In this document: positions 22,273 through 63,936 of the stretch, one piece after another
Layout: the number at the start of each line of letters is the position of its first letter
Position numbering within the stretch: the first letter of the stretch is position 1
Source: Marchantia polymorpha subsp. ruderalis
Lineage: Eukaryota; Streptophyta; Marchantiopsida; Marchantiales; Marchantiaceae
Reading direction: 5' to 3'
NCBI GenBank assembly: GCA_037833965.1
Contig: AP031353.1
Location: forward strand, 1,118,501 to 1,182,500
DNA: 64,000 nucleotides
The notes under the pieces: model-generated
What the model was told of the DNA's origin: nothing
Seen by the model: the letters and a program-made list of their open reading frames with translations, nothing else
Databases searched by the model: none
Made by a program: the position numbers and the translations under genes

Positions 22273-24095
22273 ATGGCAACTGTGGAGGTTTTAGTCCAAA
22301 ATCTGTCGTCCAGGGGAGCTCAAGCGCGAAATGTATTGCAGAGTGTCCCTCCCCAGCGTCGCGCGCAATTGCTTTTGCAGAATATGGCCGGTCTCTCGAA
22401 TCGACTCCTCGAAGTCGCAGGTCTTGCCCTAACGCTCCAAACTTTACAGACCACTAGAGTTTGAGGTCTTGTAAAGGTTGCATTGTGTTCTAGTTTGTGA
22501 TTCTCTGGTCATCGAGTCCTTCACATTGTGTTCAGCTGAAATGTATGTATCCATATTATTTAGATTCGCAGCCGTGGAGGTAATCGGAGTTGAAGTTTCC
22601 GAGAGCGTTGCCTGTCACATTGTCGTCACGCCTAGAAGTGTTTGCAGTGTTCTTGTTATGCAGGTCGTCTGTTGTTCAAAGACCAACTTATTGAGAACTT
22701 CTTCACATCAATATGTTTTAGGAAAAAAATTCGGACTTTAGACTAATGGCTTTTCACGACGTATAGTTATGTGTTCTGTCAAGTCGTTGCTAAGCGGAAT
22801 GAATGAGCGCAAAGGTGCTGAAAGTATACAATCTGAGGCTGTGTAGATTTATGGCCAGTCAGGTAGAGGGATACTGGACGAGCCATGATCAGGAAAAGAG
22901 CTCTCAAGTAGACTGAATGAGGTCGTCGAAAATTTCACAGCTTTGAAAAGAGCAGCAGAGTAGAAAAGAGCAAATAGATTAAACAGCAACGTGAGTGCAT
23001 ACTGTAAACCCACATATAATTTGTACTCATGTTTATCAGCCATATTTTAATGTGTCCTGGTGAGTTTTGACGATTGTTGCTTCAAATTCTTTTGCAGGCA
23101 ACAAAGATTGGCAGACTGGTCAAAACAAGCTGATGGCGCCTACGTTACTACAAGGTGCAGTACTGCCACCGGAAGGAGCGGCAGCTACAACTATCAAGGA
23201 CGTCCTTGGACTCCTTGATTATCATCAGACACTTTTGTTCGAGGCCATTGCGGAGTTGGCAGAGCTGCAAGAAATGGAAAACGAGAAGCAACGCATTGTG
23301 GATGCCATCGCAACAAAAGACTTGGCCATGCGGGACTTCGCCAAGCGCGTGCGAGATGCTCAACAGGTTCTGGAAGCAACCGTGGAGGAGTTCGATGACT
23401 ACAGACGACCAAAGCGGAAGGGTGTCACGGATGAGTGTAGCGGAATAGGTTTGGGGACGATTAATGTGCAAGAATTGGTGGCCTATGCCCATCGCATCAG
23501 TTATACCACGTTCGCTCCTCCTGAATTCGCCGAAGGTGCGGCTTTGCGTGGCGCACTTCCTCCCGCTCCTCAGGATGAACAGATGCGTGCATCGAAATTG
23601 TACCATGTCAGTGAACTCGATCTGGGACTTCCGAAAGTGTTTGAGCGAGTCGTATCTCCGCTCATGGGTGCTGATGCTGACACCAAGGTCGAAGGTGGGT
23701 TCACTCCACATGCGGGTCCCGGCGGTTTGCCTCCACCGCCTCCTGGATGGAAGCCTGGTATGCCATTAGAGTTACCTCTGGAGTTGCCACCCATGCCTCC
23801 TGGATGGAAACCTGGAGATCCTATACCATTGCCTGCTGATATGCCGCCCCTTCCACCTGCCGGATGGAAGCCCGGAGATGCTGTGGTTTTGCCACCGGCT
23901 TTTGCACCGTTTCCTGGAGTCGAGGGTGCAGCACCTGCTGGACCTATTAAAGCTCCACCGCTACCTGCCCCTCCGATTCCAGCTTCGGGTGTCATTCATG
24001 TGCCTTTTGTGCAGCTTGATTTGAATCCTGAGCTTGAGGATGAATTTGGTAGTGAGTACAGTGACGATGATGGCAGTTCTGACGATGACGACTGA
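22273..24095 (+). CDS. MED4: Mediator complex subunit 4 (MED4), two exons, 381 aa
   Basis: Exons are 22273-22420 and 23098-24095, joined across a 677-bp intron (gtcttg...ttttgcag) with the split glycine codon G|GC. MED4 is part of the Mediator middle module, which carries signals from transcription factors to RNA polymerase II in the nucleus. Exon 1 supplies PPQRRAQLLLQNMAGLSNRL, matching the N-terminal helix of plant MED4. Residues about 80-157 form the coiled coil that pairs with other middle-module subunits. YAHRISYTTFAPPEF (179-193) followed by RGALPPAPQDEQMRAS is diagnostic for plant MED4. The C-terminal third has three PPGWKPG/PAGWKPG repeats and an acidic Asp/Ser tail. An in-frame ATG at 22216 would add 19 residues; I prefer 22273 because the extension does not resemble the family. 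Confidence 0.92.
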
Positions 24096-36525: not shown

Positions 36526-38061
36526 TCACATTAGTGCATAAGCAAGGACTTGAAAGATAGCGGACACGTAGGTGGAGATAACGACAAGAGACAGAATGAG
36601 GAAGGAAATAAAAAGCACAAAACTAGAACAATTCCTCTCTCTGATCTCCGCAACCCAACGGTTGGGTCGGGACCTCTCAAGCTCGCTAATCCTCTTCTGG
36701 ATTTTCCTCCAATATTCCGGAGGGTTCGACGGAATGTACAGCCCTTCACACAATTGGTTCCACTGCTTGCATACGGTTTCTGCACTACCCACCTGGTCTA
36801 CGACCACACGCCGGTTGATCAGCAGACGCACGTCTTGGACGCTGTCAAGCAAGCATGTCATCAAGAACAAGTAGGTCCTCATCTCACCTCGGTGACCATT
36901 CGCTCCGCTATCCTGAATTTGTTCGTACAGGGCGAGGTTTTTGAAGACAGAAGCGGTGTGATCATGCATGATGAGTTTGGGCACAAGGAGAACATAACTG
37001 TGGAGATAACGTCGCTCGAATTTTATCTTGTTCATGGTGAGGGAATCCTCGTTCACCGTCACGGTGATTCCCATCCGCCTCAATGTTGTTGCGGATGGTA
37101 TTTTGAACGCATTTTGAGACGGTCCTGCATGTGAATACGGTGCACCGATGCTTGATGGCTTAAAGCATGGGAGATCGACCAAGTCCCCCAAGTACCGATT
37201 TGAGCTCGAAGGTGTGCAGGAAGACAGGGGTCCACAGATTGCGAGATACGCGCAGTCCAGAAGATGGTAACAGTCCACGAAGGAATCAATGCCGTGCTTG
37301 TGATAATTTTTCATATGTTGTCGTAGTTGCGGTTCATGATCCTCGTTGACTTTCGTGCCATGGTGAAAAGGGTACACTTTGATCACGAACCATTCTAGCA
37401 AATGGTACAGATCAGAACGTAGATCCCGGCCTTCAGATCCCTTGCTCAGCTGGTTCAGTACTGCGCTCAACAGACACATGGGCACCTGATTCTCCAACAT
37501 CAGAAGGTCATGTAGTAAGGCGAACCTTTGGGCGTTGAAGCTGCATCGCCTAAACACGCGATCGAAATCGTAGCCCCAGGTATCTTGGAAGCTGTAGCTG
37601 CAGCGCAAAAACGCCACGATGAAGAGAGCATCCAACGCGACCACGCCGTTCTCTCTGTCGATGGAAGTCACATCGGACTCCAACCGATAGTACTGTCGCC
37701 TCGCCTCCTTCAAGGCTTCGTCCAGGCTGGACACGAAGTCCCTCCACACTTCGGGTTTCGGAGTGCGTACGGGTGATGATGTGATGACGGTCGTTGGCGG
37801 AGCGCTAGGGATCGGACCCCGACAGATCTCGCGAGCTATGGCAAGTTTGGAGCAATCCACGTTCATAACATCATTCTCTGTGTCGAGTGCTGTATGCTTG
37901 TAGAAGCCCACGAATAACTCCTGGGGCTCGAAATCCAGCTGGAGGATATGATTTTGCCTCTGCCGTATGTATTTAGGAAGTCGGAAGATGCGAACGCTAG
38001 AGTCATCCTCATCCTCCTGCGACAATTGTGCAATGATCTGTTTGTGTGGATCATTGGACAT
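36526..38061 (-). CDS. DUF247 family protein, intronless, 511 aa
   Basis: One uninterrupted minus-strand frame starts at ATG 38061. The layout is that of plant DUF247 proteins. An early strand (VRIFRLPKYIRQ, about 23-34) is followed by a helical block (EALKEARRQYYRLESD, 115-130) and LLHDLLMLENQVPMCLLSAV (182-201), the 'D..MLENQ.P' signature. Later come FKIPSATTLRRMGI, a region with HSYVLLVPKL, TYLFLMTCLLDSVQDVRLLI (396-415) and a C-terminal membrane span (479-505). DUF247 proteins are plant-specific, mostly of unknown function; some act at grass self-incompatibility loci. Family knowledge predicts a type with a short extracellular tail, cytosolic main body or the reverse, and this is not resolved. 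Lack of introns is normal for the family. Length matches (usually 400-550). Confidence 0.9.
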   Translation of the reverse strand: MSNDPHKQIIAQLSQEDEDDSSVRIFRLPKYIRQRQNHILQLDFEPQELFVGFYKHTALDTENDVMNVDCSKLAIAREICRGPIPSAPPTTVITSSPVRTPKPEVWRDFVSSLDEALKEARRQYYRLESDVTSIDRENGVVALDALFIVAFLRCSYSFQDTWGYDFDRVFRRCSFNAQRFALLHDLLMLENQVPMCLLSAVLNQLSKGSEGRDLRSDLYHLLEWFVIKVYPFHHGTKVNEDHEPQLRQHMKNYHKHGIDSFVDCYHLLDCAYLAICGPLSSCTPSSSNRYLGDLVDLPCFKPSSIGAPYSHAGPSQNAFKIPSATTLRRMGITVTVNEDSLTMNKIKFERRYLHSYVLLVPKLIMHDHTASVFKNLALYEQIQDSGANGHRGEMRTYLFLMTCLLDSVQDVRLLINRRVVVDQVGSAETVCKQWNQLCEGLYIPSNPPEYWRKIQKRISELERSRPNRWVAEIRERNCSSFVLFISFLILSLVVISTYVSAIFQVLAYALM

Positions 38062-39422
38062 GTCAACTCTCGGAACTCTCAGAGCTTCGCTTACTCTTTT
38101 CTTCTCTCCGGTTGCGATGGGACATCGCTACGGAGATGTTATAGACGTTTGTTCGAGCGACTTTCGCGTCCAAGAAAATATTACTTTTTTAATTGGCTTC
38201 TAAAGTCCCGTTCCACGGGATACGTTAAAGTTTTGTGGGAAGACCCCCTGAATTTTTACCACGGTTAAAGTAATTACGTTAGATGGTCTACTTCTTACAT
38301 GAATGTCACAAGTATCATTACCCACTGTTACTCGGCCTTAAGAATGGTGAAAAAGGACTGAGAGATGTCAAAACAGACTATACAATTTAGTAAAGAGAAT
38401 GATATAACCGCTACCAACTTAGATGGTCTACATATTACATGAATATCCCAAGTATCATCAACCAGCAATGTGATTTCTGTCCTATGAATCTAATCAAATA
38501 ATATGTCATCAATAGACTATACGATATATCAAAGAAAATGATATCACTGCCAACTACTGCGGATCTGGATTTCGCTTAACGTAAGTAAAAATTAATAAAT
38601 AAGTATAATCAAAATAAATTTATGTTTTTTTAATATAAGAAAGAACCTGGAACAATTTTCTAACAGTTTCAGTTGTTTATAGATTTGAATTTTCTTTTTT
38701 TAACATCATGTAAAAAAAATCTATTGAAAATTTGATTTCGAAAAGAAGTTAATGTATATGTTTCAGTAAAAAAAATTAAATCATAATAATTTGAAGTTGA
38801 TGGTAAAATATGTATATATTAACAATCTGATCCGTTATATATGTACTTACCTCATATGCCTGTGATAATAATCACTCCATGAAAAGATTCTTAAATTTGG
38901 ATAATGTTCAAGATGAGTATCATGAATGTATACAATGCCATATCTATATACCCATACAAATAACAAAATCTATTTGTACATTATAAGTTTACTTATTACA
39001 AGATTTCTGTAACAACTGTTAGACTATGATTGGAACTAGATTGTATCATTCCATGCTTATATCATTGTGGATTGTGTTCACTTCGTAACAACACCTATTT
39101 GCATTGTGCTCATGACTCAATATGCGAACTCCATGATGTCACAAGTCAACTCATTGTTGACTTTAATGTTCTATTACAATAGATGCAAACATTGTATCTT
39201 TCAAATATGACCTGGTAGGGTGGGTTAGACCAATACTTTTATATGTTGAGAAACAAAGACATGAATATCTTTAGTATAATAGTCATAATAGATATGAAAC
39301 TCCATGGCAATGGAAGTGATGTGTTGTGTCTCATAGAAAGAAAATAAAACTTGGGTCATTCTGGAATTGGTTTGCACGAATTCAGCTTTAGAGCCATACG
39401 ATGTCATAAGATGTATAGTGTA

Positions 39423-59136: not shown

Positions 59137-62100
59137 ATGTCGGTCACAGATCCCGATTCGTCTTTCGAATCAAGGTTTGTGTCTAATACATGCTCACAGC
59201 AGACAATTAGGGTTTCAACTGAATCTACAACTAAAGCACCATGGTCCAACATTCTCGTTCGCCCCATGCGAGTTAATCACTGCCGCAGTAGAGTTGATGC
59301 CCGCTTACATTTTTTTTATTGTTATCCTCAGTTTCACAGGATGTAAGTGACTATGAAAACCATCTAATGAAGTGAAATAGACGCACATTCAGTCTCAACT
59401 CTGCTGTATTTTTTGTGTTCGTCCTCACAGCAGATTGCAGCCTGTGTCCGAAATTGAGGAAGTTGTTCAAGTGCCCCCCATTGAAGAACTTATAGATGAT
59501 GTGTCCGATTCTTTAGAGGTATCTGTGCCTATATTAGAGAATGTCGGTGCCACTCCTGGTAGTTCCACTTCAATCCGTCGAGGAATCACTAGAAATCGTC
59601 TTTTGACTATATCGACGACGGGAGAATGCACGGTCCAAGATGAACCTGCTCCTTCCAAACCAGACAAGGGTAAGAAGCAACAAGGTTCTGGGCAGAGTCA
59701 CAGAAAAATATCTCTCCAGAACCCGTTCCCTAGTGTGGGAAAGTTCAGAGGAACAGCTGAAGATAAGATTCTTGCCTGTATATTGTGGCTCAAAAGAAGA
59801 AGCAATGAGAAGCAAGTTAAAGCGGGCAAGGTAATTGGTTCTCAAAAGTTGATCAAGAACATTCAGCTATCGAACACTCTGTATTTAACTAAACTGTGAG
59901 TTTCACTTAGCTTCTCAAAAGCACACACAGCCTAGCTTCCAATTTGCATCAACCAATAGCTGTCATTGGCATTTCATTTGAAGTTTCTTTAACCGTCCGT
60001 CCAGTGTCAGCCTTTCAATGCTAGCACTAGTTTGTGTGTCCAGAATTCCGAGATTGGGCCGTAAGCAAGGCAGATGTTTGAATTGCAAGCATCTCGTCTT
60101 GAACTTGTTAATGCGGAAGTGAACCATTTGACATCTGTTTACTTGATCGCAAGTAGAATATGCATGCAATTGATTACCGTAACCAGAACACAAATCATCA
60201 GTTTACGAAACTGTCGTTCGATTTCGTATCACCGTGCTTATGAAGCTCTGATGAAGTTACGGTTCTTTGTTTGTCCAGGATGTTTTAGCCCTGTATCACG
60301 ACTCATTTCTCTACGCGGAAGTACCGTTATCTATCAAGGTTAGAGCTTCCATTCGAGGAGGTTTTTTGCGCCCTATTCTTGTATGGGTAAGGCGCTCTTT
60401 CGGTCTATGACACCAATTGAAAATTCTTTGTGGGCTCACACTTCTCCTTGACCGTCTAGTACTGCATTGTTTCATATGTACAAGGTATATACATGTTATA
60501 TACATGGTTTAGACTGAGTAAAGGCCAGTATAAACAAGTACTATGTTAATAAGGAAGAATATTCTGGACGAGCAGGGCTTTCATCTTCAGTTTGTGAATC
60601 ACTTCAAATAGTTATGTGCTGGCTGATGTTTCTGTGTGCTGGATTGCAGCTGGAATTTATAGCTGCTTTGACTTCGGTGATTGTCTACGTTCGATCGACG
60701 TCAGTTTTTTGAAAACCTGAGCACCTTAATCCAATAGTTTCTGGCTTCCTGCTCCAACTCTTCAGAACGTTGAATATTGGACCTCTTTTTGTGCTCGGAA
60801 AGAGTTGTAGTCGTGTGGAAAAAAATTACTTCGTTATGCAGGTGTATTACTCGGAAAACTTATTTTCTGAAAACCTGCTGTCTGAATCTCATGTTTATGT
60901 ATGTCAGTAGAGAATTACTACATACATCCTCCTTTCAAACTTCTCATCTTTTCCAGAAGACCTCCGAGTATCCAGAGGATGGAAACATCTATGTCCGAAC
61001 CTTACGACACAGATTTCAATGGTCAATCTTGCAGCCAGTGACGCTTTCTGGTTGGAAGCATGCAGGTACAACTACGAAACTCCACCCTATGTTATTATCG
61101 TGGAAACCGTGTGTGGTGTATTTTTCTTAATTGATTACGTTATAAATTTGTTCAGGTATGTTCCTAACCGAACCTCATAAGAAGAGGAGGAGATTCAATT
61201 GTTTTAAGCATATGAGCACCCGGAGCACTAATCTTTCATGAAAAACTGATTATTTGACGGTTGTGAGTTTCAATGCAAAATTTAATTTTTTGGATCATCA
61301 GAGGTAGTGTAATGTATCAGCCCGTCTGACAGTAATAGACATTATTGTCATACAAGCTGATACCTTACTCTACTTAGATAGTACTGCTAGACTAACTTCT
61401 GTCCTTGATGACCAGTCTTTTAAAAATTCATTACATTGACATTTTGTTGAGCTCCAACGCAGTGCTCCAGTACGGTTGTACTACATTATATCAGCAACAG
61501 GACTTGTTGACTTGTTGAGCGTACTGCCCATCGCCTTTCTCTGGAGGTCTGGTATTGATTTGTTATCACTGAGAATTCTTATCTCCATTGGTTGTTTTCC
61601 TAATTTTCTGCAAGCCAATTTATGGACGCAAGTCTATAGTTAAAATTTTTGTCCAAGACGAAAGGCTCTCACTCAAACCATTTCAGCATACTGGTTGAAA
61701 GGACCAAATTGGTTATGTCAAGTTCAATGAGAGGTGACCACTGCCACCTTCTGAACTATCTACGTGTCTGAAGTAACTCTGATTACTGAAAGTGTGCATC
61801 TTCGCAGCAAAAAGAAGAACTTTGGAGTTGAAATTTTGTTATTTCTCCGAGTTCTAAGGTACGCAGCTGTCAGGGCAAACACTATCCAATAAGTCTGAAC
61901 TTAGGAATGGTGTGGGAGGTTTCAAATTTTATTTTTTCTAAATTAAGAATCGTATTTCGGTATTGTATAGATATATTCTTCGGGTGAGCAAAATGCTGCG
62001 CAATAAATTCATAAATTGAAATACAATTTTGTCTTGTGGCTAGAATAATGCCCGTGCTAACATCCATTGGGCTGAGTGGAGCAACAATTACACAGCAGAT

Positions 62101-63936
62101 ATTTCGTCTGGTGGTGTACGCCTTCGGCGTGAGTGAGTTTTCAGAAACTCTGATTTTTCAGAGTTACTTCTGAAGACATTATGTTACTCTGCTTATTAAA
62201 GAATTGTGAATTGTCGAAATATTACATGGGAAGTTTTCATTTGCGTTTCCACGTTGAAATGAGAAGACTGAGAACACCTCCATCGATTACAATTGGTAGT
62301 TGACATCTTTCCATTTGCTGCAGTATTTATCGCTGCGGGACTACTTCAATGGGTTGAATACAGGGCAAGCACAACGCAGTACAGAGAAGACAATAATTGC
62401 AGTCCCAAGGGATGCCTAACGTTCTTCGGGGCTTTCTACTTCATGATTGTGACCGTAAGTTTGAGACCTTCATCTCTATCTTTTGTGCCACTTTGTAATG
62501 ATGTCTGGTCGAAAACGATATAACGGAATTACCATAACCAAAGTCTTTATGATGCTCGAAATTCGTTCTTTCCAATCACAGATTTCCACAGTTGGTTATG
62601 GTGACATAACTCCTAAATCAGACTGGGGACGTGCTGTTGCTATTCTGGCTATTCTGGCAGCTCTCATCATTCTTCCTGCCCAAGTAAATAACATCATGCA
62701 GCTTGCTTCTCGCAGGTAAGTAACAAGGCGGGGAACTTGACTGTTGTCAACAGACCTATGGAAAATGCCCTCGTTTTTTGGAATGTTGTTGTAACTCCAG
62801 CTAAATGTCATCGTTTTTCGCTGACATATATTTGCATATTTACCCTGTCAGGCCTTATGGAGGATATTTTGCAGTGAAGAAGGTTGTTGGCTCTCGCTTT
62901 ATTATTGTAAGCGGAAACTTGACCTTCAGAACTGTACAAGATTTCCTCTCCGAATTCTATCACCCGAATCACGATAAAGGTGCTTACACAAATTGTTCTT
63001 TCTTCTTAGCCATTTATAACCATCCTCAAAATGCCCACATATATGAAAAGCAATAACTTTGAAGAGTACCAATTGATTCAATTGTGGTTGCAGACCTGGC
63101 TGCATTTCCCATACGTGTCGTACTTCTCGCTCCATTTAAACCCTCGTACGTTTCCTCTGAGCACTCGTTTGTAGTTCCACTGATTTGTGTTGAAAGGTCA
63201 CATCGACATACATCCTCAAGGCATCTTACTGAACTTGTTACAGTAAGATTTCCTCAATAATCAATAAAATGTACACGGGAAGAAAAATACGGGAGGTCAG
63301 AAATGTAGCCAATCCAACGGGATCTGACAGCGACACTTCAACTAATACAGATGAATTCTTACAAAGAGTTTAATGGCATTTCAGATTTGAGCTGAAATCG
63401 TTATTAGCACACTACAAAGGACGAGTTGAATTTATTCAAGGCACACCGCTGAAAGATATAGACCTTGACCGAGTTAGCGCTAATGTTGCGTCCGCCATTT
63501 TCTTAATAGCAGATCAGCATGCTCAGGTAAACCACTAGCACGCAGATTGTGGCAAATGCGTATGAAAGTTTCGAAGGACACGCTATCAAGCGGACAGCAG
63601 GCTCTATATCCCTATGCTTACATTCTGCTTTTGAACAGGATCCAGAAGCGGAAGATGCAACACAAATTCTGCGTACACTTGCAGTACATCGACACTGTGG
63701 ATCTGCTTTGCGCGTAATAGTCGAGCTACTGAAACCCGAAAGACGAGCCAACGCCATCTGGGATGATGCTACAAGTGATATTGAGATTATCTGCTTCGAG
63801 TCCATTCGCTTCAAACTTCTCTCTCGCAGGTATATGTCCATTATATGTAAAATGTTACCGGTATACACGTCATTGCAGAATGTGTGAGCTCTTGCTGCAT
63901 AGATTCGCGTCGATGCTAGTGTACACAGGCGAGTAG
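59137..63936 (+). CDS. BK/Slo-like six-transmembrane potassium channel with RCK domain (16 exons visible)
   Basis: Exons: 59137-59174, 59431-59830, 60031-60060, 60279-60338, 60650-60699, 60976-61155, 61463-61546, 61808-61858, 62044-62132, 62300-62454, 62582-62715, 62852-62979, 63094-63145, 63385-63526, 63639-63829, 63879-63936. The sum is 1842 bases (613 aa) to TAG 63934-63936. Residues 1-175 are a cytosolic acidic then basic extension. S1 is about 177-191, S2 231-252, S3 258-280, S4 286-313 (LLFLRVLRIMPV), S5 327-348. The pore has ISTVGYGDITPKSDWGR, filter TVGYG at 382-386, and S6 follows (395-420). RCK starts FIIVSGNLTFRTVQDFL and includes VEFIQGTPL, SAIFLIADQHAQ and DPEAEDATQILRTLAV (532-547), the BK RCK1 signature. 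It should pass K+ under cytosolic ligand control. Exon 5-6 joining is the weakest link (acceptor 60957 plus an extra exon is possible). The gene may continue past the window. Confidence 0.8.

Follow-up and report, generated by a model that had tools for sequence, protein, structure and literature searches.

MpBK1 of Marchantia polymorpha, a streptophyte BK channel gene, and the question of its calcium sensing

Plant BK channels have been named calcium-activated by homology, although they lack most of the residues through which the animal channels bind calcium. Are they calcium sensors? We take up this question for a gene near one end of a window of 64,000 nucleotides (C4:1118501-1182500) of the Marchantia polymorpha subsp. 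ruderalis genome, which was searched over 241 Mb in 9 contigs. That gene, MpBK1, belongs with the streptophyte (plant) BK channels of the SLO family; it and its family are already known and named. A first-pass annotation of the window had treated a BK channel in a land plant as a surprise, one that the literature takes away: according to the available text of a 2012 paper, BK-like channels occur in Physcomitrella and Selaginella and are absent from flowering plants (PMC3410407), and the available text of a 2024 review counts three BK genes in M. polymorpha (its Table 1), one in spruce and none in Amborella, Arabidopsis or rice (PMC11617655). Beyond these two, our literature search listed no other paper about SLO/BK channels of Marchantia, and in the accessible part of PMC4565715 the terms searched for brought up no mention of BK channels. 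What we add is a fuller MpBK1 model, an apparent split between BK1 and BK2 before the land-plant radiation, and a residue comparison.

Our gene structure is a homology-based splice model, in which protein frames and splice consensus were weighed together with two paralogues and with homologues. Of its 18 exons, 14 lie inside the window, and the spliced product of 1138 aa is free of internal stops. The same method, applied to the copy at C4:24.07 Mb, reproduced 1311 of 1311 residues of deposited MpBK2B (P0089). The first-pass annotation had given the gene as 59137..63936; its start holds, since the ATG of the model is at 59137, and its end does not, since RCK1 is followed by BK_channel_a and RCK2, to about 66736. 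The stop codon lies at window-equivalent 66734-66736, 2.7 kb past the window. The features are as follows, by homology-based splice model.

59137..59174, plus strand: exon 1, start codon and soluble N-terminus
59431..59830, plus strand: exon 2, soluble N-terminal region, without a hydrophobic S0 segment (hydropathy); the acceptor is a CAG/CAG pair, leaving one residue uncertain
60279..60386, plus strand: exon 3, opening of S1, preceded by a conserved block (YHDSFLY...); similar to the gymnosperm homologue P0008
60650..60699, plus strand: exon 4, remainder of S1; absent from the deposited MpBK1 representative P0001
61066..61155, plus strand: exon 5, S2 (hydropathy)
61463..61546, plus strand: exon 6, S3 (hydropathy)
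61808..61858, plus strand: exon 7, S4 with RVLR, the second arginine codon being split across exons 7 and 8
62044..62132, plus strand: exon 8, S4-S5 linker and start of S5 (hydropathy)
62324..62454, plus strand: exon 9, S5, turret with C-x4-C, pore helix
62582..62715, plus strand: exon 10, selectivity filter TVGYGD (62588-62605) and S6
62852..62979, plus strand: exon 11, S6-RCK1 linker and start of RCK1 (YGG...GSRFIIVSG) (Pfam)
63094..63145, plus strand: exon 12, RCK1 (Pfam)
63385..63526, plus strand: exon 13, RCK1, with VEFIQGTPL at 63425-63451 (Pfam)
63639..63829, plus strand: exon 14, RCK1, with DPEAEDATQILR at 63639-63674 (Pfam)
window-equivalent 64138-64312, 64485-65376, 65854-66199 and 66421-66736 (including the stop codon), plus strand: exons 15-18, BK_channel_a, RCK2 and Slowpoke_C

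A hydropathy scan of the spliced protein recovers S1 (178-196), S2, S3, S4, S5, the pore region and S6, in keeping with the six hydrophobic segments first claimed. Nothing before S1 in the homology-based 5' model rises above threshold (best 19-residue value, 0.79), so an S0 helix was not found; two gating-ring stretches, at about 623-650 and 905-928, are also flagged, and these are taken for RCK core and not for membrane helices. The TVGYGD K+ filter, the TVGYG motif of the annotation, sits within a six-helix voltage-gated channel, the layout of the SLO superfamily, and the two motifs that had been assigned to an RCK domain, in exons 13 and 14, both lie in RCK1. All five Pfam families found pass their cut-offs: Ion_trans, Ion_trans_2, Slo-like_RCK (E = 5.9e-37, in two stretches), BK_channel_a (2.8e-19) and Slowpoke_C (7.9e-6). 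The combination of two RCK domains with BK_channel_a is thus present (PF22614 in two stretches, PF03493, PF21014), and the fold agrees with it. When a 528-aa stretch of an earlier model was compared with solved structures in the PDB by sequence, the best matches were the Slo1 channels of Drosophila (5.1e-54) and human (4.4e-53), followed more weakly by Slo2 (9.9e-28), the Slo3 gating ring (2.1e-22) and Kv channels (from 1.1e-10); a profile search of the PDB again placed Slo1 first. In a structure model of the deposited protein P0001, Slo1 chains are the best structural matches, and its gating-ring part agrees with the gating rings of BK channels.

That deposited protein, 'protein MpBK1 [Marchantia polymorpha subsp. 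ruderalis]' (P0001, NCBI), is the first match in the protein search; it represents a cluster of three sequences, of which it is the one compared. It is identical to our model at 937 residues (200-918 and 921-1138), from S2 to the C-terminus, and the first-pass reading of a BK/Slo-like K+ channel in a land plant is thereby borne out, by name as well as by the BK Pfam domains and the Slo1 structure match. Chance resemblance is ruled out by the E-values of the BK-specific Pfam domains, the Slo1 match at 5.1e-54 and the identity with deposited MpBK1. The differences are two. Residues 919-920, at exon 17, are missing from P0001, consistent with an acceptor 6 bases downstream, and homologues back the version of the model (LQA, two residues, VVIL; P0018). 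More substantially, P0001, at 972 aa against 1138 in the model, has neither the N-terminal region nor S1; over its first 35 residues it departs from the model, and most of these fall in the model's intron 4. An S1 block like that of exons 3 and 4 is present in Cryptomeria P0008, and the exon layout around S1 in deposited MpBK2B is that of the MpBK1 model. P0001 reads part of the model's intron 4 as coding and is without S1, and we therefore regard the 5' end of the MpBK1 model as not settled. Deposited MpBK2A (P0088, 904 aa), which is identical to residues 285-1188 of our model of the copy on contig C8, shares with P0001 an N-terminus shorter than in the models backed by homologues and by full-length MpBK2B. 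For cloning of MpBK1 that starts from the deposited 972-aa model, which is without S1, the fuller N-terminus is relevant.

Two other explanations of the gene have to be weighed, both of them extremely improbable in our judgement. One is that a CASTOR/POLLUX-type channel has been misread as BK. The gating-ring fold is common to both. Against this reading, the filter of MpBK1 is TVGYGD, its best sequence match is Slo1, and its Pfam scan is without PF06241 (Castor_Poll_mid), both genomic matches of which fall at a separate locus, C7:8.616 Mb. The first-pass annotation had excluded this family too, and correctly. The other takes MpBK1 for contamination from an animal or protist, or for a gene that the liverwort acquired by recent transfer. 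Nothing was found in its favour, and we can hardly credit it of a gene that sits in a 30-Mb contig, shares the window with a plant DUF247 gene, has a protein of the same name deposited from Marchantia, and has Riccia and Calypogeia as its neighbours in the tree described below. Contamination of the contig, which the annotation had named as a refuting condition, is accordingly rejected.

The DUF247 frame (36526-38127, minus strand) is uninterrupted over 533 codons (Pfam E = 1.8e-51) and belongs to a plant protein of unknown function; it supports a plant origin of the window. A Mediator subunit 4 (Med4) frame lies at 23064-24095 on the plus strand (Pfam E = 2.5e-9). The next gene downstream of MpBK1, past the window (L005:4800-7300, minus strand), resembles by eye only a chloroplast-targeted membrane protein. 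Elsewhere in the genome, C7:14390036-14395680 and C3:27865518-27871401 each carry three Ion_trans matches at similar spacing, and are perhaps a pair of two-domain channels, for example of TPC type.

Marchantia holds at least three BK genes, in agreement with the count of the 2024 review, with PF03493 at three places, and with three matches to PF21014 and four to PF22614, all at the same loci. Beyond Marchantia, protein searches, each scoring about 8000 candidates, returned at least 76 proteins with MpBK1 as query (E up to 1e-3), at least 41 with an alignment of 15 plant proteins (E up to 1e-30) and at least 49 with MpBK2A (E up to 1e-30). The named matches come from liverworts, mosses, lycophytes, the ferns Adiantum and Ceratopteris, the gymnosperms Cryptomeria and Taxus, and the algae Chara and Closterium, and no angiosperm is among the names of the matches listed, many weak matches being nameless. 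From identifiers we presume further sources, with Gb_ standing for Ginkgo, Mesen for Mesotaenium, SM for Spirogloea, Mesvir for Mesostigma and tig for Cyanophora; the row labelled 'Neptune' carries a source name cut at 'Nep'. Six nameless close relatives group in the tree with gymnosperms (three), ferns (two) and Physcomitrium (one). This distribution, the one by which the annotation had proposed to check its reading, also accords with its view of a channel kept in early land plants as far as retention goes; 'early' understates the range, the gene having been kept in gymnosperms as well. Streptophyte relatives with no named angiosperm among them agree with the available text of both papers cited above (PMC3410407, PMC11617655).

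Within this family, we compared a quick tree of 51 rows, many of them on long branches, with an LG+G4 tree of 41 rows and 465 columns, for which 17 of the 51 rows were dropped and seven added, and on which the root was imposed by an outgroup of seven rows (SLO1, SLO2, Dictyostelium, one Mesostigma row and the 'Nep' row). Under that root, the BK proteins of Chara, zygnematophytes and land plants form one side of a branch supported at 100/100, with MpBK1 inside it, adjoining Riccia (99/97) and Calypogeia (100/100). Counter to a single streptophyte origin, both Mesostigma rows fall outside the group in the quick tree; the one kept in the LG+G4 tree was put into the outgroup by choice. Neither tree resolves how SLO1, SLO2 and the plant group branch relative to one another. 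Land-plant sequences separate in the LG+G4 tree into a BK1 clade (100/99, 22 rows: liverworts, mosses, lycophytes, ferns and gymnosperms) and a BK2 clade (100/99, eight rows: liverworts, mosses and a fern). Because both subfamilies hold liverworts, mosses and ferns, the split between them should predate the spread of these three groups. An earlier date, before land plants parted from zygnematophytes, is only moderately supported: the quick tree places Mesotaenium_b with BK2 (98) and Spirogloea and Mesotaenium_a with BK1 (99), and in the LG+G4 tree one Mesotaenium row again joins land-plant BK2 (86/87), but Spirogloea and Mesotaenium_a have no resolved placement there. The names MpBK1, MpBK2A and MpBK2B suggest that the split has already been recognised.

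The residues of the voltage sensor and calcium sites were tabulated over 34 streptophyte rows, 26 from land plants and eight from algae, with positions labelled by human Slo1 residue numbers and roles as we take them to be. In S4, R213 is kept in 24 of the 26 land-plant rows, R210 has become L in 14 and Q in nine, and Q216 has become R in 25. D362 is E in 22 of 26, E374 is R in 23 and E399 is E in 23, while an acidic residue at D367 is found in none of the 26 (two of the eight algal rows have D). E535 is E in 22 land-plant rows, two of the remaining four having gaps, and R514 is kept in none, a loss that says little, since its calcium contact in Slo1 is presumably through the main chain. MpBK1 itself reads R at R213, L at R210, R at Q216, E at D362, N at D367, R at E374, E at E399, G at R514 and E at E535, so that of the RCK1 calcium side chains D367 is replaced and E535 retained. 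The calcium bowl of RCK2 is a run of five acidic residues in human Slo1, within a stretch that is acidic at 8 of 29 positions. Of the 34 streptophyte rows, 32 have letters in this stretch, MpBK1 among them, and their longest acidic run is one; the other two are blank, and Closterium and one Mesostigma row align poorly. Both aligned Chara rows are without the aspartate run, as are two mollusc Slo2 rows. Since most rows that are neither animal nor streptophyte lack the run as well ('Nep' and Prymnesium have acidic runs of four), the bowl may be a gain of animals and not a loss of plants.

What, then, does MpBK1 do? From what is observed directly, namely its identity, domain order, filter, residue differences and family membership, we infer the functional steps, and consider it highly probable that MpBK1 is a K+ channel of the streptophyte BK type, opened by voltage and with a gating ring tuned by a cytosolic signal. 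Four subunits would form the K+-selective pore, and a voltage sensor with two S4 arginines would open it on depolarization; K+ release through the open channel would then repolarize the membrane, as it might once a liverwort action potential has fired. In the cytosol, a gating ring with two RCK domains per subunit would adjust the opening to a cytosolic signal. Of the possible readings, anatomy and the cited work best support a K+ efflux channel that depolarization activates; the review, in its available text, describes BK channels as voltage-regulated K+ channels, one of them localised to the plasma membrane (PMC11617655).

With the animal calcium bowl and D367 both absent, calcium bound at the animal sites is a less likely signal than protons or some other ligand, and calcium gating through those sites is, as far as the sequence goes, doubtful. 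MpBK1 may be gated by pH: the reference list of the review includes a 2021 preprint by Sussmilch whose title describes a depolarization-activated, pH-recognising Marchantia SLO channel (PMC11617655). The annotation had proposed a calcium- or pH-linked role, and of its two halves the pH part agrees with this title while the calcium part is weakened. Might cytosolic calcium gate MpBK1 much as it does animal Slo1, through other residues of the gating ring? We think this unlikely, though not fanciful. The two RCK domains are in place, the conservation of E535 leaves room for some calcium effect, and the review ascribes to the BK gene of Chara the large, calcium-activated K+ conductance of that alga's tonoplast (PMC11617655, available text); set against these are the lack of an acidic residue at D367 in all 26 land-plant rows and an acidic run in the bowl no longer than one residue in any streptophyte row with letters there. 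Returning to the reading of a voltage-opened channel tuned by another signal, we offer tentatively, at slightly less than even chances, a broader proposal: that land-plant BK is a SLO channel uncoupled from calcium at the animal sites (D367, bowl and S0 being absent), whose opening is set by voltage and pH, and whose BK1 and BK2 subfamilies parted before the land-plant radiation, BK1 reaching the gymnosperms and neither having been found in flowering plants.

Set beside known systems, MpBK1 shares its genome and its domain order with MpBK2A and MpBK2B (P0088, P0089), which belong to the sister subfamily BK2. CASTOR/POLLUX channels share its gating-ring fold and differ in Pfam domain and locus, and presumably in the pore. 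Slo2 (KCNT1) and Slo3 share the gating-ring fold too, with a weaker sequence match than Slo1. Relative to animal Slo1 (KCNMA1, slowpoke), MpBK1 is without S0 and the calcium bowl, has D367 replaced by N and E374 by R, and in S4 has R207 replaced by E and R210 by L, with an arginine at Q216; with that same channel it shares S1-S6, TVGYGD, RCK1, BK_channel_a, RCK2 and Slowpoke_C.
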